Source: Microbulbifer agarilyticus
Lineage (GTDB): Bacteria > Pseudomonadota > Gammaproteobacteria > Pseudomonadales > Cellvibrionaceae
Assembly: GCF_001999945.1 (NCBI RefSeq)
Contig: NZ_CP019650.1
Span: 682,001-746,000 of the forward strand
DNA length: 64,000 nt
Reading direction: 5' to 3'
Shown in pieces: positions 43,772-53,983 of the stretch; the first letter of the stretch is position 1; every line of letters starts with the position of its first letter. The notes beneath the pieces are model-generated. The model had not been told where the DNA came from. It did no database searches and saw nothing but the letters and a program-made list of their open reading frames with translations. The position numbers and the translations under genes are program-made.

Positions 43772-43778
43772 GAAAACA

Positions 43779-43802
43779 TGGGGTGTAAGACCCCGTATTT
43801 TT
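43779..43802 (+). terminator. Weak terminator/attenuator hairpin after ribBA
   Basis: GGGGT, loop GTAAG, ACCCC then GTATTTTT, immediately after the ribBA stop. The short stem suggests partial termination within the rib operon. Confidence 0.55.
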
Positions 43803-43807
43803 GAATC

Positions 43808-43929
43808 GAAGGCGGAGGGCCGGGTATAAGTTTTCAGGAGCGTCGCAAACAGGAAGTTTGCGCCGCAGCGCCCAGGGATGGGTTCACAGCGGTCCTGAAA
43901 ACTTATACCCGGTGCTCCGCCGCCACTGC
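43808..43929 (+). repeat. Structured 122-bp intergenic element, copy A
   Basis: Closing stem of 7 bp (43811-43817 with 43915-43921), a small internal loop, then 20 perfect bp (43820-43839 with 43893-43912). Inside are an 11-bp hairpin (43840-43850 with 43856-43866, loop AGGAA), a CCCA-GGGA-TGGG hairpin and the tail ACAGCGG. It shares its core and ends with copies B and C but not the middle of its long stem. It sits between ribBA and ribH in the sense orientation, so it would be part of the rib transcript. Confidence 0.93.
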
Positions 43930-43986
43930 TCTAGGGCCAAAGAGATACCAAGGGCTCAAAGTGGAAAACAGAAACGGAAAGAGACC

Positions 43987-44457
43987 ATGAGCAAGATCAA
44001 AGTTATCGAAGGGGATTTCGTAGGCAGCACCGGTAAGTACGCACTGCTGGTGAGCCGCTGGAACAGCTTCGTTGTGGAGAGCCTGAAAGACGGCGCGCTG
44101 GACACCCTGCGTCGCAAAGGCATCAAAGAAGAAGACATCACCATTTACTACGCCCCGGGTGCTTTCGAATTCCCGCTGGCCGCGCAAAAAATTGCCCAGA
44201 GCAAAAAATTTGACGCCGTCATTGCACTGGGTGCAGTGATCCGCGGCGGCACCCCGCACTTCGAATACGTAGCTGGTGAATGTACCAAAGGCCTGGCCCA
44301 GGTATCCATGGATACCGGCATCCCTGTGACCTTCGGTGTCCTCACCGTAGACTCTATCGAGCAGGCCATCGAACGCTCCGGCACCAAAGCCGGCAACAAA
44401 GGCTGTGAAGCCGCGGAAACCGCCCTCGAAATGGTTTCCCTGCTGGGCAAAATCTAA
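43987..44457 (+). CDS. ribH: Lumazine synthase
   Basis: Forms 6,7-dimethyl-8-ribityllumazine, 156 aa. Motifs include [41 protein letters not shown] and PVTFGVLT. The start at 43987 follows GGAAAGAG. A longer frame from 43801 runs through repeat copy A and is not real coding sequence. Confidence 0.95.
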
Positions 44458-44473
44458 ACCGGACTGAATTGAA

Positions 44474-44914
44474 ATGACCGTAACCGCATCTGCCCGCCGC
44501 AAGGCTCGCCACTACGCCATGCAGGCCCTGTATCAGTGGCAAATGGCTGGCTCTAACCTGAATGCCATCGAAGCCGAGTTTCGTACCGACAACGATATGA
44601 GCAAAACCGACGTGCCGTACTTTCACGAGTTGCTGCACGGCGTGGCGAAAAATCTCGACGAGGTTGAAGGTATCTACACCGAATACCTGGATCGCGACGT
44701 CGAAGAGCTCGACCCGGTGTCTCGCGCGCTGCTGCGCATGTCCACCTTCGAGCTGAAAAACCGTATCGACGTCCCCTATAAAGTCGTGATCAACGAAGCC
44801 GTTGCGCTGGCGAAAAAGTTCGGCCCTACCGATGCCTTCAAGTTTATTAACGGCATTCTCGACAAGGTTGCAGTGAAAGAGCGCAGCGTCGAAGTAAAAG
44901 CCGACAAAGGCTAA
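44474..44914 (+). CDS. nusB: Transcription antitermination factor NusB
   Basis: All-helical RNA-binding protein, 146 aa, acting with NusE in antitermination of rRNA operons. The N-terminus ([18 protein letters not shown]) and the segment [34 protein letters not shown] are diagnostic. It lies 16 bp after ribH, the usual position. Confidence 0.96.
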
Positions 44915-44921
44915 ACCGCGC

Positions 44922-45901
44922 ATGCCTGGCCCCGGTGAATTTGAACTGATTCGGGAGTACTTTTCCTCTCGCTTTCAAACCGAGGGCCAGTCCAATTCTG
45001 GGGGCAGGGTTATGCCAACCAGGGTGTAGAACTGGGCATTGGCGACGACTGCGCGCTGCTGAATCCACCCACCGGTAAAACGCTCGCCACCAGTGTCGAT
45101 ACCCTGGTGGCGGATGTGCACTTTCCTGCAAACGCCGACCCCTATCGTATTGCCAGCCGCGCGCTGCGTGTCAACCTTTCGGATCTCGCGGCGATGAATG
45201 CGGACCCCCTGTGGTTTACGCTTGCGCTGACGTTGCCCGAGAGCAATCCCGACTGGTTAGAACCGTTCGCGCGCGGGCTTGCTGAGACCGCCCACCTGCA
45301 TGGCATAACGCTGATCGGTGGTGATACAACCAAGGGGCCGCTGTCGATCACGATTCAAGTCACCGGTGCCTGTGATGCGCCACTAAGGCGCGATGGCGCG
45401 AGTGCTGGCGATCACATTTTTGTTTCCAACACACTGGGTGCCGGCGCCGCCGCATTGCCCATTGTGCTGGGTGATATCGAAGGCAGTGCGGAACAGCAAC
45501 AGCAAACCGAGGCGGCCTATTATTTCCCGGAGCCGCAATTCGCGGTGGCCCGAGCCATTGGCAAATATGCCAGTGCCGCACTGGATATTTCTGACGGCCT
45601 GCTCGGGGATCTCGCGCATATCTGTGAGGCCAGTGATCTCGGTGCCGAGCTGGATGTGGAGCGTTTGCCGATAGCGCCACTGGCACAGAGTGTAAAAGGC
45701 GAGGGCGCCCTGGAAACCGCGCTTACCGGCGGTGATGATTACCAGCTCTGTTTTACTGTCCCCGAGCAGCATTTGCATGCATTGGGGGAGCTGCAGTTAC
45801 CGATTGCGGCCATCGGTCGTATGACTGCGGAAAGCGGCGTGCGGTGTCGATTACACGGGGTCGACTGGCAGCCGAGCGGCACCAGCTTCCGACACTTTTA
45901 A
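44922..45901 (+). pseudogene. thiL: Thiamine-monophosphate kinase with apparent frameshift
   Basis: ThiL phosphorylates thiamine phosphate to thiamine diphosphate. The N-terminus begins at ATG 44922 (MPGPGEFELIREYFSSRF) but that frame stops at 45028. The rest (GVELGIGDDCALL, SVDTLVADVHF, VNLSDLAAMNADP, GGDTTKGPLSI) continues in another frame to 45901. Adding one G to the run of five at 45000-45004 would join the two parts without loss. It is either a one-base deletion, a sequencing indel or phase variation. Starting at the internal GTG 45107 would lose the GIGDD metal-binding motif, so such a product is unlikely to work. The position between nusB and pgpA is standard. Confidence 0.85.
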
Positions 45902-45922
45902 GCGGTGGAGAATAACAACAGC

Positions 45923-46447
45923 ATGAGCACCAACTCGACAACGAATTCAGGTCCCACCCCGAAGCCCACGCCAACCATGGCCGAGCTTTTGCGCAGCCCG
46001 GTGCTGTTTCTCGCGTTTGGCTTTGGTTCTGGTTTAGCCAAAAAGGCGCCGGGAACTTTCGGGACTCTCGCGGCGGTACCTCTCTGGTACGGACTGCAGT
46101 TTCTGTCGCCGCTGGCCTATCTGGCGGTTCTTGTTATCACCTTTGTCGTGGGTTGCTACCTGTGCGGTGCCGCGTCCAAGAAGCTCGGTGTGCACGACCA
46201 CGGCGGCATCGTGTGGGACGAATTTGTCGGCTACTGGCTCACCATGTTTATGGCCCCGGTGGGCTGGCTGTGGGCCCTGTACGGATTTGTCCTGTTTAGA
46301 ATTTTCGATATCGCCAAGCCCCCGCCCATCGGCTGGGCTGACCGCCGTGTGCACGGTGGTCTGGGGATCATGCTGGACGATATACTGGCAGGAATTTACG
46401 CCGCGCTGGTGTTGCAGGGCACGGCTTATCTGATTCACACACTCTGA
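45923..46447 (+). CDS. pgpA: Phosphatidylglycerophosphatase A
   Basis: Inner-membrane enzyme of about 174 aa removing phosphate from phosphatidylglycerol phosphate. Family motifs are FGFGSGLAKKAPGTFGTLAAVPL and IVWDEFVGYWLTM, followed by FRIFDIAKPPPIGWADRRV and GGLGIMLDDILAG. Three or four helices are present. ATG 45923 is preferred; a GTG at 45905 would add six residues. Confidence 0.93.
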   Translation: MSTNSTTNSGPTPKPTPTMAELLRSPVLFLAFGFGSGLAKKAPGTFGTLAAVPLWYGLQFLSPLAYLAVLVITFVVGCYLCGAASKKLGVHDHGGIVWDEFVGYWLTMFMAPVGWLWALYGFVLFRIFDIAKPPPIGWADRRVHGGLGIMLDDILAGIYAALVLQGTAYLIHTL

Positions 46448-46453
46448 GGCCGG

Positions 46454-47101
46454 ATGCCCATGAAGCTGCGCGGTTTATTCATACTCGCTGTCACGCTGTT
46501 AGTGCCAGCCATTGCCAGTGCACAGGAAGTGCGTTTGCAGGCCATTTTCGGCAGCAGTGCCATGTTTGAGGTGGACGGCAAGCAGCGCCTGCTGAAGTCC
46601 GGTAAAACCTCACCTGAGGGCGTGACACTGGTGTCGGTAACCAATGACCATGCACTGGTGCGTATTGATGGGCGCGAACAGAAGTTGACCCTGGCGGCGC
46701 CGGTAGCGGCAAATTATGCCAAGGCCGAGCGTGCTGAAGTACGCCTGAATCCGGACAGCCGCGGCCATTACAGCACCACTGCGTGGATAAATGGGCGCCG
46801 TGTGAATGTGATGGTGGATACTGGAGCCACGAGTATTGCGTTTAATTACCCCACGGCCAAAAGCCTGGGGCTGGACCTGTCGCGGGCAAGGCCCATGACG
46901 GTCTCTACCGCCAGCGGCGTCGAAAAAGCGTACAGGCTGCAGCTGGCGAGTGTCACCATCGGTGGTATCACGGTACACAACGTGGAGGCTACCGTACTGG
47001 GTAGTGATTTCCCCACTGTGACACTGCTGGGCAATAGTTTTTTGAGTCGTGTGGACATGCAGCAGCAGGATGGACTGTTACTGCTGCGCGCGCGCAATTG
47101 A
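46454..47101 (+). CDS. Retropepsin-like aspartic protease
   Basis: A 215-aa exported protein. After a signal peptide (ending AIASAQ) comes a small beta region, then a single retropepsin-type domain with the active-site motif [12 protein letters not shown] and a later [10 protein letters not shown]. Single-domain members act as dimers. It belongs to the clan AA family seen in many proteobacteria, function mostly unknown. It lies 6 bp after pgpA and just before ribA, so it is co-transcribed. Confidence 0.85.
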
Positions 47102-47132
47102 TGACGATTTTGATGGATCGCGAGGTATCAGC

Positions 47133-47741
47133 TTGACCATTCGCTATGTGGAATCTTCCAAACTGCCAACGTCTTGGGGCATGTTTGAGATGCACGGTTT
47201 CGAGGAAGTGGAGAACGGCAAGGAACACGTTGTTCTGAGCATGGGAGATCTCGACACAGATGCGCCGGTGCTGGCTCGTATCCACTCCGAGTGCCTGACT
47301 GGGGATGCGCTGTTCTCCCTGCGCTGTGACTGCGGCGCGCAGTTGCAATATGCATTGCATCGCATTGCCACCGAGGGCCGCGGTGCGGTGTTTTACTTGC
47401 GTCAGGAAGGGCGCGGCATCGGTCTGTTGAATAAGATCCGCGCGTACCACCTGCAGGACGCGGGCGCCGATACCGTAGAGGCGAATGAACAGCTTGGCTT
47501 CGGCGCAGATATACGGGATTACTCGATCCTGAAACCGATGATCGATCACCTGGGTATCAAGTCGATTCGCCTGATGACAAACAACCCGCGCAAAGTAAAA
47601 GCACTGCAGGATCTCGGTGTACAAGTGGCCGAGCGACTGCCCCATCAGTCCGGTCGCAATCCGCACAACCTTAATTACCTTTCTACCAAGAAAGGCAAGC
47701 TGGGGCACCTGTTCGACGGCGATGAAAACCCTGACAAGTGA
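47133..47741 (+). CDS. ribA: GTP cyclohydrolase II
   Basis: First committed enzyme of riboflavin synthesis, 202 aa. The zinc cysteines are intact in [21 protein letters not shown], as are [16 protein letters not shown] and the TNNPRKV loop. The start is TTG at 47133 with GAGG seven bases upstream; the upstream frame into the protease gene is not conserved. It supplies the activity missing from the RibBA protein. Confidence 0.94.
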
Positions 47742-47791
47742 TTGCTCTCGCTGACCTGCCGATGGAAGTAGCTGACTGCGAGCGGTTTTCG

Positions 47792-47820
47792 TTGTCACAA
47801 ACCTTTCATAAAAGCGTCAT
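47792..47820 (+). promoter_or_regulatory. Pho box, three 7-bp units at 11-bp spacing
   Basis: TTGTCAC, CTTTCAT and GCGTCAT begin at 47792, 47803 and 47814, separated by AAAC and AAAA. This is the arrangement of PhoB half sites (consensus CTGTCAT, 11-bp repeat). No protein gene starts within 300 bp downstream; the likely target is the candidate RNA below. Confidence 0.7.
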
Positions 47821-47854
47821 GTAAAGGAAACGGGAAAACGCCAATCTATAGGCG

Positions 47855-48025
47855 AGCAAGATACTGATTCTGCAAAAAGCTCAGGAAGAGCAAGCGAAGT
47901 ACTTTAGGACTGCGGAATCGCCAGTGGTGTCTATACTCGTAGTTATCTGATCGCTGAAGGTCGAGAAAGGTGATGTACCGTCAGCGCTAGGATATAGAAA
48001 GCCGGCTTTTGCCGGCTTTCGTTCG
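47855..48025 (+). ncRNA. Candidate phosphate-regulated small RNA
   Basis: About 170 bp lie between a TATA-containing -10-like region (near 47845-47850) and a GC-rich hairpin at 47998-48019, with no open frame of note. A short hairpin GCTC-AGGAA-GAGC is at 47879-47891, and other GGA triplets occur near 47910-47920 and 47990. The -10-like sequence is 26 bp after the last Pho unit, longer than in classical Pho promoters, so the start site is uncertain. Transcription is inferred only. Confidence 0.45.
47998..48025 (+). terminator. Hairpin terminator of the candidate sRNA
   Basis: AAAGCCGGC, loop TTTT, GCCGGCTTT, then CGTTCGTT. The U-tract is interrupted, so strength is moderate. Confidence 0.65.
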
Positions 48026-48101
48026 TTCTGTCCCTAGGAAAATATTTCTGCCGCCAACGTTACAATTTTGGCGCGTAAACGGGCCTGTTTATCCGCGGTT
48101 A

Positions 48102-48244
48102 TTGCAGTCGCGCTGCAAGGCTGTTAAGTTGTACGAAATTTCACCAGTGGAGAATGGTTCATGAGTGTATCCAGTTTCCGCCGGGCCAGCTGCGACTGAC
48201 GTTTCCGTTTTCAGTCTCTCTGCCCGGCAAGTCCTATTGCCGGG
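48102..48244 (+). promoter_or_regulatory. Leader upstream of rsgA with mini-ORF and hairpin
   Basis: A possible promoter (TTGCAG, 16 bp, TTAAGT) overlaps an inverted repeat TTGCAG-N5-CTGCAA at 48102-48118. A 12-codon frame with a good ribosome site (GGAG at 48149) starts at 48161 and stops at 48199. A hairpin CCCGGCAA/TTGCCGGG follows at 48223-48244 with TTT after it. This resembles an attenuator layout, but nothing else supports it. Between 48245 and 48376 I see nothing. Confidence 0.3.
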
Positions 48245-48376
48245 TTTCGTCTATTCCATCGAAACCCCAACTGATCGTGCCCAGACATTGTGTTCTGTGG
48301 CCAAATCATCCGTGCCCGCAGCCTTTCCCAAAGTGAGGAAAAGTCATGTGGCGGGCACCCCTGAGGGTTTAGGACA

Positions 48377-49504
48377 TTGAGTAAATCCCTGATTTCACGT
48401 CGCCCAACTTTTCGACGTGGCGCCTCCGCAGCGGGCGCAAAAACACCTTTGAATAGCGTATCTCCACTCAAGCAACTCGGCTGGAAACCATTTTTTCAGC
48501 AACAGCTGAGTCTGGATGAGTTAAACGACTGCCAGCCGGTAAAGGTCATGGCGGTGCACCGCAGCCAGATCGAAGTATCCGGCGAGTCGGGAGAGGAGAG
48601 CGTATTGGTCAGTGGCGCCCTGTTCGAGGATGCCGCAGAGCGCCCTACCGTGGGCGACTGGCTGCTGCTGGCACGCGAGAGCCGCAAGCCTGTACGCCGG
48701 CTGGAGCGCAGCAGTCTGTTCAAGCGCATGGCACCGGGTGCCAAGCAGGTTCAGCTGATCGCCGCCAATGTGGATAACGTGCTGATCGTTTCCTCCTGTA
48801 ACCAGGACTTCAACCTGTCGCGGGTGGAGCGCTATCTGGCACTGGTGAAGGAAGCGGGTTGTCGCGCCTGTCTGGTATTGACCAAGGCTGACCTGGACGA
48901 GAATCATGCGCCGTTTCACGATGCGCTCAAGGGGCACCGCGATCTGCCAGTCGTATTGGTGAATGCCCTTGACACAGAAAGCGTAGCGCCATTGCGGGAT
49001 TATTGCCGCAGTGGCGAAACACTGGCGTTGCTTGGCTCGTCCGGTGTGGGTAAGTCCACCTTGCTGAATAGCCTTGCGGGAACCGAATTAGCCGCAACCG
49101 GCGGTATTCGTGAAGACGACAGCAAGGGGCGCCATACCACCCGTCATCGTGCGCTTTATCCGATTGTGGATGGAGGTCTGATTCTAGATAGTCCGGGTAT
49201 GCGGGAGCTGGCGCTCGCGGATATTCGTGAGGGGTTGGAGGCAACTTTTGCGGACATCTCGGCGTTGTCGGAGAAGTGTCGTTTCGCGGATTGTGTCCAC
49301 GAGTCAGAGCCCGGCTGTGCTGTGCAAGCGGCAATCGAGGCCGGTGAGCTGGATGAGCGTCGCCTGCACAACTGGCGCAAACTGGAAAGGGAAGTGGCGC
49401 GCAACAGCAAAACACTGGCGGAGTCGCGTGCCTCAGACCGCTCGTTGAGTCAGCTGTACCGTTCGGTGCAAAACCATGCACGGGCTAATAAAAACCGCAC
49501 GTGA
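48377..49504 (+). CDS. rsgA: Ribosome small subunit GTPase RsgA
   Basis: Circularly permuted GTPase, 375 aa, that helps mature 30S subunits. Domains are an OB fold (about 50-120), a permuted G domain (NVDNVLIVSS, LVLTKADL, GSSGVGKSTLLN, DSPGMREL) and a C-terminal zinc knuckle (CRFADCVHESEPGCAV). The start is TTG at 48377 with GAGGG nine bases upstream. An intrinsic terminator follows. Confidence 0.92.
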   Translation: MSKSLISRRPTFRRGASAAGAKTPLNSVSPLKQLGWKPFFQQQLSLDELNDCQPVKVMAVHRSQIEVSGESGEESVLVSGALFEDAAERPTVGDWLLLARESRKPVRRLERSSLFKRMAPGAKQVQLIAANVDNVLIVSSCNQDFNLSRVERYLALVKEAGCRACLVLTKADLDENHAPFHDALKGHRDLPVVLVNALDTESVAPLRDYCRSGETLALLGSSGVGKSTLLNSLAGTELAATGGIREDDSKGRHTTRHRALYPIVDGGLILDSPGMRELALADIREGLEATFADISALSEKCRFADCVHESEPGCAVQAAIEAGELDERRLHNWRKLEREVARNSKTLAESRASDRSLSQLYRSVQNHARANKNRT

Positions 49505-49530
49505 TTTGGCACTCAATTTTGACCGCCATT

Positions 49531-49559
49531 AAAAAGGGCCGCGTTTGCGGCCCTTTTTT
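49531..49559. terminator. Bidirectional terminator between rsgA and DUF885 gene
   Basis: AAAAAGGGCCGC, loop GTTT, GCGGCCCTTTTTT. It serves both convergent genes. Confidence 0.93.
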
Positions 49560-49569
49560 GTCTGAGAAA

Positions 49570-51453
49570 TTAGTTAAGTGCTGCCTGCCCCGCCGAATCA
49601 TCTGCAGGGGCGGTCCGACTCAGGCTGCCCCCTTGAGATTCGATCCAGCGGTTCATGCGCGCCTCAAGTAAATTGAGCGGCAATGCACCGGCGCCCAACA
49701 ACGCGTCGTGGAAATACCGAATATCAAAGTTATTGCCGAGGGCTTCTTCCGAGCGGGCGCGGATTTCCAGAATCTTCAGCTGTCCAACCTTGTAGGCCAG
49801 TGCCTGGCCCGGCCACACCAGGTAGCGGTCGATTTCCACTACCACATCATGCTCCGGCTTGGCGCTGTTATTCATGAAATAGCGAATGGCTTCGTCACGG
49901 CTCCAGCCCAGCTGATGCATACCGGTATCCACCACCAAGCGCACCGCGCGCCACATATCGTAGGTCAGTGCACCAAACTCGCTGTAAGGGTCCTGGTACA
50001 GGCCCAGATCATAGCCGAGGCTTTCGGAGTAGAGTCCCCAGCCTTCCACGTAACCGGTGTACATCTTGGTGCGACGCAGTGGGTGAATATCCTGCTGCTC
50101 CTGGGCCAGTGCAATTTGCAGATGATGCCCGGGGACGGCTTCGTGCACGGTCAGGGCTTCCATTTCCCAGATGGGACGGCTTTTCAAGTTGTAGGTATTG
50201 GCAAAGAACACCCCGGCACGCCCGGTTTCCATCGACCCCGGCTGGTAGTAAGCGGTGGTCTGGGATTTCTCCGAGTACTCGGGGATTCGCTTGATACCGT
50301 AGGGCAATCTTGGCAGCGTGCGGAACAGCGCGGGAATTTCGCCATCAATACGCTTGGCAATATCCCGGTACTGCTTCAGCAGGTCTTCACGACTCTGGTG
50401 ATAAAACTGCGGGTCGTTGCGCAGGAAATCGGTGAACGCTTTGAAGTCGCCGTCGAAGCCGGTCTTTTCAATAATCGCATCCATCTGTGCGCGAATACGG
50501 CGCACCTCTTCGAGGCCGATCTGGTGAATCTCTTCCGGGCTCAGGTCCGTGGTGGTCTGCTTGCGCACCTTGTGCGCATACCAGCGGATACCGTCGGCGT
50601 TTTTGGTGAACGCGGTTTCGGTGCTCGCCTGCGGGATGTATTCCCGCTCCACAAATTCGGCGAGGCGCTGCCAGTTTGGCACCAGTGACTTGCGGTAAAT
50701 ATTATGTGCCCGTGCACGCAGTCTATTCTTGCGCGCCTCGGCAATGCTCGCAGGAATGTTATTAAATGCCTTGAGCAGTGGGCTCTGTGCCGGGTCTTGC
50801 GGAATCAGTGCGCGAATCTGGCCGGGCAGGTCACGCAGGGTGATTTGTGGCGGTGTCAGTTTCTGCTCAAGCCCAAGCTCCATCAGAATCTTGGTCTGCT
50901 CGATCAAGCCCGGCAGTTTGTCGAGGCGCGCGAGTATATCTTCATAGTCCGCAGCGGTGCGCTTGGGCATCGCGTTCAAGACTGCCGGCACACTGCGCTG
51001 GATGCCGCTCATGTGGTTGATAGGTAGCAGGTGCTCGGGAAACTGGTAGCCGCGTACATCCAACAACAGGTCTTGGTACAGCAGCTGGTAATCGAGCCGT
51101 TCGCTATCGCTGAGCTTGTCTTCGTTTAGCTGGCGACTGGTGGCGAGCAGTTTGCGTGTCTGGTCTTTGCGGCGCTCGATACTCTTCAGGGATTGATCGG
51201 TCCAGTCACGCTCTACGCCGGGGTAGCCTTGGTAGGTGGCATTTTCTGGATAGCTTTCCATGATCCAGCGGTAGCGAAGATCCTGCAGGGCGCTCAACTT
51301 TTCACTGGCACCAGTTTTCGGCAGCGCCTTCATGGCTTTGTCGAAGTCACGTTGCTCCATAGCCTGTGAGTTTGCACTGGCAAGTATTATGGCGGCCGAT
51401 AGTGTTACGAACTTAGGCTTTAAGATATTTTTGAATGCTTGGCGTAAGGACAT
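49570..51453 (-). CDS. DUF885 metallopeptidase-like exported protein
   Basis: A 627-aa protein of the DUF885 family. A signal sequence (FVTLSAAIILASANSQA) suggests export to the periplasm. The zinc-peptidase-like motif HEAVPGHHLQ occurs around residue 435, followed by EGWGLYSE and a C-terminal PGQALAYKVGQLKI, all family hallmarks. The substrate is unknown. It lies downstream of dxs on the same strand, but two structured repeats fill the 400-bp gap. Confidence 0.87.
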   Translation of the reverse strand: MSLRQAFKNILKPKFVTLSAAIILASANSQAMEQRDFDKAMKALPKTGASEKLSALQDLRYRWIMESYPENATYQGYPGVERDWTDQSLKSIERRKDQTRKLLATSRQLNEDKLSDSERLDYQLLYQDLLLDVRGYQFPEHLLPINHMSGIQRSVPAVLNAMPKRTAADYEDILARLDKLPGLIEQTKILMELGLEQKLTPPQITLRDLPGQIRALIPQDPAQSPLLKAFNNIPASIAEARKNRLRARAHNIYRKSLVPNWQRLAEFVEREYIPQASTETAFTKNADGIRWYAHKVRKQTTTDLSPEEIHQIGLEEVRRIRAQMDAIIEKTGFDGDFKAFTDFLRNDPQFYHQSREDLLKQYRDIAKRIDGEIPALFRTLPRLPYGIKRIPEYSEKSQTTAYYQPGSMETGRAGVFFANTYNLKSRPIWEMEALTVHEAVPGHHLQIALAQEQQDIHPLRRTKMYTGYVEGWGLYSESLGYDLGLYQDPYSEFGALTYDMWRAVRLVVDTGMHQLGWSRDEAIRYFMNNSAKPEHDVVVEIDRYLVWPGQALAYKVGQLKILEIRARSEEALGNNFDIRYFHDALLGAGALPLNLLEARMNRWIESQGGSLSRTAPADDSAGQAALN

Positions 51454-51522
51454 TGTACTGCCTGTCTCTTATTGTCTTTGATGTGTTCCGCGCGGTAGCT
51501 ACAGCGCGAAAATATAAGAAGT

Positions 51523-51645
51523 TAAGGCGGGGTGCAGAGCAACTCTTTTCGGAAGCGTCGGCGACAGGGACGTCGCCGACGCAGCTTACAGGGATGTATG
51601 TACAGCGGTTCCGAAAAGAGTTGCTCTGTGGCCCGGCGCCACTGC
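51523..51645 (+). repeat. Structured intergenic element, copy B
   Basis: Perfect 20-bp closing stem (51535-51554 with 51609-51628). Inside are an 11-bp perfect hairpin GCGTCGGCGAC / GTCGCCGACGC (51555-51565 with 51572-51582, loop AGGGAC), a TACA-GGGA-TGTA hairpin and the tail ACAGCGG. The ends AAGGCGG and CGCCACTGC match copy A, but the stem sequences do not. It is antisense to the flanking genes. Confidence 0.92.
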
Positions 51646-51685
51646 GGTCATGTTCGGAGCTCTTAATTGGAGCTTTGTTTGACGC

Positions 51686-51807
51686 GTAGTGGCGGCCGAG
51701 AATCGGGTGCGGATTTTCAGGACCGCTGTAAACCCATCCCTGGGCGCTTCGGCGCAAACATCCTGTTTGCGACGATCCTGAAAATCCGCACCCGACCCTC
51801 AGCCTTC
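51686..51807 (-). repeat. Structured intergenic element, copy C
   Basis: Read on the minus strand it matches copy A: 49 of 53 core positions are identical. The closing stem is again 20 perfect bp (51703-51722 with 51776-51795), but its middle five pairs and its first pair differ from copy A. The inner hairpin is closed by T-A instead of G-C. It lies 40 bp from copy B, in the opposite orientation. It is in sense with dxs and the DUF885 gene. The flanking spacer (51454-51522, 51808-51853) holds nothing else recognisable. Confidence 0.93.
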
Positions 51808-51853: not shown

Positions 51854-53785
51854 TTAAATCGCAGCAGCCTGGCCGTTTGACTGCGCCTGATGCATCTGGT
51901 TCTGGCGTTCGCGAATTTGTTCTTCGATACCTTTGGCGTCGAGGCCAATTTCTTTGAGCAGTTTCGGGTGCTTGCCGTGCTCAATAATTTTATCGGGCAA
52001 GCCCAGCTGCAGAAGCGGTACCGGGATGATGCGTTGATTCAGGTATTCCGATACTGCACTGCCGGCACCGCCAGCGATGGTGTTTTCTTCCAGCGTGACC
52101 AGCAAATCGTGGCTGTCCGCCAGCCGGTCGATCAACTCTTCGTCCAGCGGTTTTACCCAGCGCATATCTACCAGAGTCGCACCGAGTTTTTCTGCCGCTT
52201 CACGGGCCGGCGCCAACAACGTACCGAAACTCAGGATCGCTACATTGCTGCCTTCCTGAACAACGCGCCCTTTGCCAACAGGCAGAGCGGTCATGTCTTT
52301 TTCGATCTCGATGCCGGGGCCGGTACCGCGCGGGTAGCGCACGGCGGATGGGCCATTGTGCTGATAGGCGGTGTAGAGCAGCTGGCGGCACTCATTCTCG
52401 TCAGACGGCGCTGCGATGACCAGATTTGGCAGGCAGCGCATAAAGGTTAGGTCAAAGCTACCCGCATGGGTCGGGCCGTCTTCACCGACGAGGCCGGCGC
52501 GATCGATGGCAAAGGTCACGTCCAGGTCCTGGATCGCCACGTCGTGCACCATTTGGTCGTAACCGCGCTGCAGGAAGGTCGAGTAGATCGCCACCACCGG
52601 CTTCTGCTCTTCACAGGCGAGACCGGCGGCCAGGGTGACAGCGTGTTGCTCGGCAATGGCAACATCGTGGTAGCGCTCAGGGAAGCGCTCGGCAAATTCC
52701 ACCATGCCGGAGCCTTCACACATAGCGGGGGTGATACCCACCAGCTTGTCGTCCTGCTCGGCCATATCACACAGCCACTGGCCGAAGATATCCTGGTACT
52801 TGGGACCTTTCTTCTTGGCGGTTGCGGCCGCTTCGGGCGACACCGCTACCTGCACCTTGGGCTCCGGTTCGAGCTTGTTCAGCGCGTGGTAACCCACCGG
52901 GTCTTCTTCCGCGGGGCCAAAGCCCTTGCCCTTGGTAGTGACTACGTGCAGCAGTTGCGGCCCTGGTTGATTGCGCAGGTTACGCAGGGTGTGCACTAGG
53001 TCCTGCATGTTGTGGCCGTCCAGCGGGCCCACATAGTTAAAGCCCAGCTCCTCAAACAGCGTGCCGGGCGTAATCATGCCCTTTACGTGTTCTTCGGTAC
53101 GGCGTGCCAGCTGCCATGCCTTGGGGATAGCAGACAGGATCTTGCGGCTGCCCTCGCGCATGTTCAGGTACGTCTTGCTGGCGAGAATACGCGCGAAGTA
53201 GGTGGCGAGACCGCCCACGTTCTTGGAGATCGACATGCGGTTGTCATTCAGCACCACAAGCATGTCTTTGCCGGTGTGTGCGGCGTGGTTCAGCGCTTCA
53301 AATGCCATACCCGCGGTCATGGCGCCATCGCCAATCACGGCGACAACCTTGCGCTCATCCGGGGAGCCCAGCGCCATACCCAGTGCGGCACTGATGGAGG
53401 TACTGGAGTGCCCGACACCGAAGGTGTCGTAGGGGCTTTCGCTGCGCTTGGGGAAGCCGGACAGGCCGCCCTGCTGACGCATGCTGAGCATCTGCTCACG
53501 GCGGCCGGTGAGAATCTTGTGTGGATAAGTCTGATGGCCCACATCCCACACCACCCGGTCTTCCGGGGTGTTGTAGATGTAGTGCAGGGCGATGGTGAGC
53601 TCGACCACGCCGAGACCGGCACCAAAGTGGCCGCCAGTCTGGCCTACACAGTAGAGTAGGTATTCACGTAATTCCGTTGCCAGTTCTGGCAGCTGTTTTT
53701 CCGACAGGGCGCGCAGCTGGGCTGGCTCGTCAATCTGGTCGAGCAGCGGAGTCTGCGGGCGTTGGCGGGGGATCTCGTCGAACAT
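51854..53785 (-). CDS. dxs: 1-deoxy-D-xylulose-5-phosphate synthase
   Basis: Thiamine-diphosphate enzyme, 643 aa, first step of the MEP isoprenoid pathway. The N-terminal domain has [45 protein letters not shown]. The cofactor motif is [17 protein letters not shown]...NDNRMSIS, and the transketolase middle and C-terminal domains are intact. The start at 53785 has AGGA eight bases upstream. Upstream lies the Mrp operon rather than the usual ispA. Confidence 0.95.
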
Positions 53786-53983
53786 CAAGGGTCCTGAATC
53801 GGGCAGCCCCAGGCGCCGCATGCTTCCGTGAAGACGAAACGGCGGCCTAAGGTATCAATTGCAACTGATATAAGAAGGGAATTGTATGCCCCTCGCGGGG
53901 AGATTGCATCCTGCGCGGCGCACGGCTCCCCGGTCAATCGTCACTTCACAATTCCACAGAGCCCTCAAGACCCCTGTAGCGCC

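Follow-up and report, generated by a model that had tools for sequence, protein, structure and literature searches.

What does a bacterial genome gain from a palindrome that keeps its pairing while the sequence of its stem changes? The question is raised by three copies (A, B and C) of an element of about 122 bp in the 64,000-nucleotide stretch of the Microbulbifer agarilyticus chromosome analysed here, which is referred to below as the window. A preliminary description had proposed three elements with common ends, common loops, an ACAGCGG tail and alternative inner hairpins, and all of these are present; the 20-bp stem that it gave them needs correction, as the paired arms average about 31 bp. 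We lean towards the view that A, B and C belong to a Gammaproteobacteria-wide superfamily of dispersed RNA hairpins that bind the regulator CsrA/RsmA, a superfamily that takes in YPAL, the Yersinia palindromic sequences reportedly described by De Gregorio et al. in 2006. The copies and their hairpins are located as follows (gene names from reading of the open reading frames, ORFs).

Copy A: 43808..43929, plus strand, between ribB and ribH and on the same strand as both
Copy A, hairpin 1: 43844..43862, plus strand, CGCAAAC-AGGAA-GTTTGCG, GGA within a five-base loop
Copy A, hairpin 2: 43871..43882, plus strand, CCC-AGGGAT-GGG, an ANGGAX hexaloop
Copy B: 51523..51645, plus strand, antisense to both neighbours (ORF 49570-51453, minus strand, and ORF 51854-53821, minus strand)
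Copy B, hairpin 1: 51555..51582, plus strand, GCGTCGGCGAC-AGGGAC-GTCGCCGACGC, an ANGGAX hexaloop
Copy B, hairpin 2: 51587..51598, plus strand, TAC-AGGGAT-GTA
Copy C: 51686..51807, minus strand, same strand as both neighbouring genes
Copy C, hairpin 1: 51753..51771, minus strand, CGCAAAC-AGGAT-GTTTGCG, GGA within a five-base loop
Copy C, hairpin 2: 51733..51744, minus strand, CCC-AGGGAT-GGG, an ANGGAX hexaloop

RNA folding of each copy gives a single long stem with two inner hairpins, and the minimum free energy z-scores of A, B and C are -9.3, -9.2 and -10.0, respectively, with none of 200 shuffles as stable. Outside the window, copies were collected by similarity and by covariance models. A BLAST search with copy A and its flanks at E values up to 10 returned 56 match rows in this one-contig genome; covariance model R1 was built from 31 copies (30 BLAST loci plus B) and model R2 from 60 copies. 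Scanning the genome with R1 at E values up to 1 gave 104 rows, and removal of 31 opposite-strand rows and of one row at an E value of 0.34 left 72 copies, of which A, B and C are the only ones in the window. Two subfamilies can be told apart by eye, with the tail ACAGCGG and the tail ACGGCGTGTC, and a rough pattern gives subfamily sizes of 49 and 23 own copies. In a set of relatives, R1 matched 39 of 58 genomes, the own genome included. Within the genus, where opposite-strand rows are counted, at least one R1 row was found in 35 of 37 genomes and at least 24 rows in 23, the range per genome being 0 to at least 62. Across the order R1 matched 93 of 293 genomes (42 of 118 genera) and across the class R2 matched 71 of 369 genomes (64 of 272 genera); in a sample of the phylum, R2 matched 32 of 398 genomes, all 32 of them inside the class. 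An exact 25-mer of the core occurs in at least 120 stretches in named genomes, and Microbulbifer, Marinobacter, Halomonas, Saccharospirillum, Pectobacterium, Rheinheimera, Zobellella, Sedimenticola and Thiofilum are among the matches listed. The further copies on which the preliminary description had made its reading depend are thus found in the genome and, in large numbers, in relatives.

Pairing was assessed in alignment A2, which was made from sequence only and comprises 31 own copies. In this alignment, 97.7% of the cells pair, compensatory double changes occur at 32 of the 44 pairs, and 216 double-change cells were observed compared to 49.5 in shuffles, with none of 500 shuffles reaching the observed number. 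With the pairing partner slid by one to three columns, 19-41 double-change cells were counted, a comparison that favours the unshifted structure in that it was predicted from the same alignment. Alignments fitted by covariance model, which lean towards the structure, also covary; in one of them, A5 (52 copies from 34 genomes), one of five measures, that for further pair types, did not rise above the shuffles (471 of 500 as high). The covariation expected in a larger alignment is therefore strong, and together with the strand asymmetry described below it bears out the selected secondary structure that had been proposed from three copies.

Selection on a DNA cruciform would be symmetric between the strands. 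In a strand test, the 5' arm was aligned to the complement of the 3' arm, G-U and A-C being given equal scores, and the arms of the 72 own copies contained 132 G-U against 12 A-C. The same excess was found in 70 copies of the related genome G032 (126 against 4), in 33 copies from 29 other genomes (11 against 0), in 28 loci from four other genomes (28 against 5) and for the own copies within a 142-copy MAFFT alignment of poor consensus (76 against 17); part of the G-U count is supplied by two pairs in which G-U is frequent (A2 columns 11-124 and 12-123). Since G-U far exceeds A-C, the constraint acts on one strand. The excess is kept in the 23 copies that lie antisense to both neighbours (46 against 4), and thus read-through mRNA alone cannot explain it. 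Action at the RNA level is strongly suggested, and the one-strand constraint most likely acts as RNA, although the plus strand might instead be acting as single-stranded DNA.

Both inner loops retain C-A(N)GGA(X)-G while their stems vary. In A5, the three positions of GGA are occupied in 52, 52 and 52 of 52 copies in loop 1 and in 52, 51 and 52 of 52 in loop 2; the preceding A is present in 49 of 52 and 52 of 52, respectively, N is variable, and the closing pair is C-G. Apart from the closing C-G pairs and a single U that follows hairpin 2, the hairpin stems carry 0.3-0.75 bits per column, and the AGC linker (52, 52 and 51 of 52) and the YACRGCG-type tail are conserved as well. At least two central GGA are present in 68 of the 72 own copies, and in A, B and C they stand at element positions 45/46 and 69/70, 24 nt apart. 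Structure and loops are hence both conserved. In a control set of 116 stretches (113 of the at least 120 25-mer loci), chosen solely by the 25-mer of hairpin 2, an upstream loop that contains GGA and has five or more closing pairs is seen in 80; the corresponding counts for other triplets are 44 for GGG, 26 for TGG and 4 for AGG, largely frames of AGGGA or AUGGA loops, and 0 or 1 for the rest.

The ANGGAX hexaloop on a stem is the high-affinity motif of CsrA/RsmE (PMC4005645, excerpt). In vitro selection (systematic evolution of ligands by exponential enrichment, SELEX) gave RUACARGGAUGU as consensus for CsrA, and the CsrA dimer bridges sites 10-63 nt apart, best at more than 18 (PMC7652899, excerpt); the 24-nt spacing of the loops therefore suits dimer bridging, and hairpin 2 of copy B with its preceding T fits the consensus at 11 of 12 positions. 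From these likenesses, we infer that the plus-strand elements may bind CsrA/RsmA. On the plus strand, the unit is a long, near-perfect stem with free sequence and retained pairing, topped by two small hairpins which are joined by the invariant linker and followed by the conserved tail. A plus-sense transcript would let a single CsrA/RsmA dimer dock at two sites, with the long stem holding both loops together and resisting decay. With roughly 70 copies, the genome would have CsrA-binding sites scattered near gene ends, which could titrate CsrA or alter what becomes of the transcripts in which they lie, and their cores would be renewed in blocks in place, probably by recombination with other alleles or copies, both arms changing at once.

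Several observations weigh against such a role. The arms are mostly Watson-Crick, A5 was picked by a model that already contained GGA, and 36 of the 116 control stretches are without a GGA loop closed by five pairs. Omission of N from ANGGAX lowers affinity (PMC4005645, excerpt), and hairpin 1 of A and C is without this N. Most SELEX ligands of CsrA have four or fewer pairs (PMC7652899, excerpt), and hairpin 1 of A, B and C, with 7-11 pairs, is stabler than most of them. Consensus scans at A, B and C revealed no promoter-like consensus near any of the three. With the elements masked, a crude ORF caller and orientation taken relative to the element, the neighbours of the 72 copies are ++ in 25, -- in 23, +- in 18 and -+ in 6 cases, i.e. 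25 sense against 23 antisense without sense bias. In favour of the role, csrA was detected in 66 of the 71 genomes of the class that bear the element and in 246 of the 298 that lack it (Fisher p 0.028), and in 58 of 59 and 221 of 255, respectively, of those at least 90% complete (p 0.0097); this association leans in the expected direction, is weak, and its statistics ignore phylogeny.

On the same orientation counts, the idea that the elements are sense 3' untranslated parts of mRNAs fails as a general rule; a difference in context between the two subfamilies was not significant (p 0.21) in a count made before element masking. The apparent lack of csrA in the own genome was rejected as an artefact, the gene running into a masked stretch, and the same artefact may apply to four Microbulbifer genomes without a csrA match. 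In seven genomes with 1-10 element rows (G003, G004, G008, G009, G013, G029 and G036), 4-18 CsrA homologues were counted, compared to one in most others, and these seven have a common type of ribB-ribH spacer (by eye). G006, with 47 rows and nine CsrA homologues, is an exception, and G007, G010, G018, G025, G030 and G034 have few rows and no extra CsrA. In Pseudomonas putida, a pull-down with RsmA, RsmE and RsmI recovered intergenic regions around ISPpu8, one of them termed a long palindromic region (PMC7937890, excerpt); this region may be a member of the repeat family.

The elements could instead be non-autonomous palindromes of the type of miniature inverted-repeat transposable elements (MITEs), whose plus-strand hairpin serves, in the form of single-stranded DNA or of RNA, as substrate for a mobilising protein reading the GGA loops, so that the structure is selected for mobility and has no role for the host. 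We regard this as rather unlikely, even if the multicopy, intergenic distribution, the wide range of row numbers within the genus and the lack of sense bias fit it, as do the ten close pairs of the R1 list (gaps below 80 bases), all of which are inverted. B and C form an inverted pair, tail to tail, between the dxs-like (51854-53821) and the DUF885-like gene (49570-51453). Also in its favour, YPAL/RU-2 is described as MITE-like (PMC2759123, excerpt), and some relatives have element-free sites, but these are too diverged to define element ends or a duplication of TA or another target. No sign of recent spread was seen: 61 of the 72 own copies are matched by a copy at the corresponding position in G032, a genome with the same RibH as the window, and recent copying was dismissed in that identity to the nearest own paralogue does not exceed 0.892. 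Nor were matches obtained in viral contigs (two exact core patterns), in plasmids (BLAST with a single query composed of C and the tail of B) or in phages (BLAST with a single query, A).

Two observations concern the extent of the unit. Some own copies have flanks that are weakly alike by eye, TTACGAAGTA-like before and CAGAGCTCC-like after the element, which suggests that the unit may exceed 122 bp in these copies. Moreover, an insert of 13-14 bases of the GGGGGCGCCTAGCC type is found in the tail of the tip (L012, L026, L027, L117 and others); sister species differ in whether they carry it at a given site, and members of both subfamilies can have it.

Another possibility, which we consider improbable, is that the elements are transcription-end or mRNA-stabilising hairpins, in which the stem closes gene 3' ends from either side and the GGA loops have another partner. 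By the crude ORF caller, the median distance from a copy to a gene end that faces it is 39 bases (84 stop codons), and convergent genes flank 18 copies, compared to 6 flanked by divergent ones. At the site of copy 2516038, 14 of 23 matched relatives were inspected by eye: six hold plain terminator-like hairpins, two elements and four other sequence, and in G032 and G020 there are short stems that lack the tip. Since terminator-like hairpins occur at the same site and gene ends are near, the family sits at terminator positions, without sense preference. YPAL targets are likewise said to overlap terminators. Against terminator function, consensus scans at A, B and C found no terminator-like site at B or C, and the single one lies upstream of A:

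Terminator-like hairpin with T-run: 43778..43796, plus strand, immediately 5' of copy A and outside its core (consensus scan)

Furthermore, a symmetric stem leaves the invariant GGA loops, the AGC linker, the tail and the one-strand excess of G-U unexplained. By eye, loci L267 and L268 have short stems like the outer arms with the tip missing, which are perhaps collapsed elements, and the ribB-ribH gap of other species (L132, L139, L145 and L146) appears to hold other palindrome-like repeats, resembling a repeat hot spot.

How the elements change in place was followed in the 61 orthologue pairs with G032, whose core identity is at least 0.93 in 31 and lower in 30. The 31 similar pairs have 5 double and 36 single pair changes, compared to 179 double and 86 single changes, plus 5 double changes without pairing, in the 30 diverged pairs. 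Both 150-nt flanks reach at least 0.80 in ten diverged pairs; in the others the flanks have diverged too, and replacement of a longer stretch is possible. The counterpart of copy A in G032 has the same stem, but its tip carries two substitutions and an insert of 13 bases. In G028, the orthologue of A (L122) has mismatched arms, of which the 5' arm resembles that of G325 and the 3' arm that of G031 (by eye). We read the in-place change as probable block exchange via recombination or templated copying. For the arms re-copied as hairpins that the preliminary description had considered, this means partial agreement: the 30 diverged cores, in which both arms mostly changed together, and the arms in G028 that resemble two relatives speak for it, the other 31 cores being nearly identical. 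The block-wise change of both arms in these counts would also follow from hairpin-templated correction in which one arm serves as the model for the other and structure is not under selection. This reading is very improbable: such correction, which may still supply variation, should by itself yield G-U and A-C in equal measure, and it does not account for loops that stay constant from genus to genus.

We thus return to dispersed CsrA/RsmA-binding hairpins as the preferred reading. The global regulator CsrA/RsmA controls metabolism, biofilm and lifestyle and is usually described as balanced by a few dedicated small RNAs. More tentatively, and with less confidence than in the reading itself, we propose that dispersed RNA repeats with a CsrA site as their conserved core, present across the class in tens of copies per genome, form a CsrA reservoir distributed along the chromosome, or use CsrA for their own upkeep, and that copy number and loop types turn over between species and so rewire the Csr network without a change in csrA. 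Should tens of repeats per genome indeed present paired CsrA loops, many genera would harbour a large store of CsrA sites that has so far escaped notice, and repeats that have been regarded in Yersinia as mobile DNA would acquire a function. The question of why pairing is retained as the stems change in sequence thereby becomes open to experiment.

Compared with known systems, the elements resemble REP/BIME and ERIC in being intergenic palindromes, and REPs are often in alternating orientation; a REP unit, however, is a sequence of 20-40 bp that is tagged at one end (PMC3733652, excerpt), whereas the elements described here have about 122 bp and a branched tip. With the small RNAs CsrB, RsmY and RsmZ, which bind CsrA, they would have that partner in common, and both present GGA in the loops of short hairpins. 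CsrB/RsmY/RsmZ are dedicated genes with several sites, in contrast to dispersed repeats with two sites and a long stem, and scans around A, B and C did not reveal the own promoter and terminator of a CsrB/RsmY-type gene. Rfam at gathering threshold returned zero families for the whole window. Among nine loci searched, RF02770 (Ysr224, Yersinia sRNA 224) matched L088 at 25.2 bits, on the complementary strand and below its gathering score of 70 bits; BLAST of this distant copy against E. coli genomes gave no match. Skipping-rope RNA, a possible lead, was dropped, being absent from the Rfam matches.

The closest named relative is YPAL/RU-2 of Yersinia, and the statement of the preliminary description that it knew no named family with this layout can be replaced accordingly, as the core is the same. 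Common to both are two hairpins (loops AAGGAU and AUGGAU in YPAL/RU-2), an AGC linker, a UUUACGGCG tail, a long stem and a multicopy, intergenic distribution. The RU-2 sequence (Table 1b of PMC2759123, excerpt) is 92% identical over 79 nt to the Pectobacterium copy L347, which R2 itself finds at an E value of 3.4e-14, and YPAL/RU-2 is therefore placed in the same superfamily; direct alignment of RU-2 scored 43 for B and 16 and 18 for A and C. Among the papers searched, none names both YPAL and CsrA, and the excerpt of PMC2759123 treats YPAL/RU-2 as a mobile DNA repeat with CsrA unmentioned. Outside the core no similarity was seen, and a repeat of 168 bp stands against a core unit of about 122 bp. 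Judged by sequence, the elements of M. agarilyticus are relatives of YPAL by their core and candidate CsrA-site RNAs by their loops.

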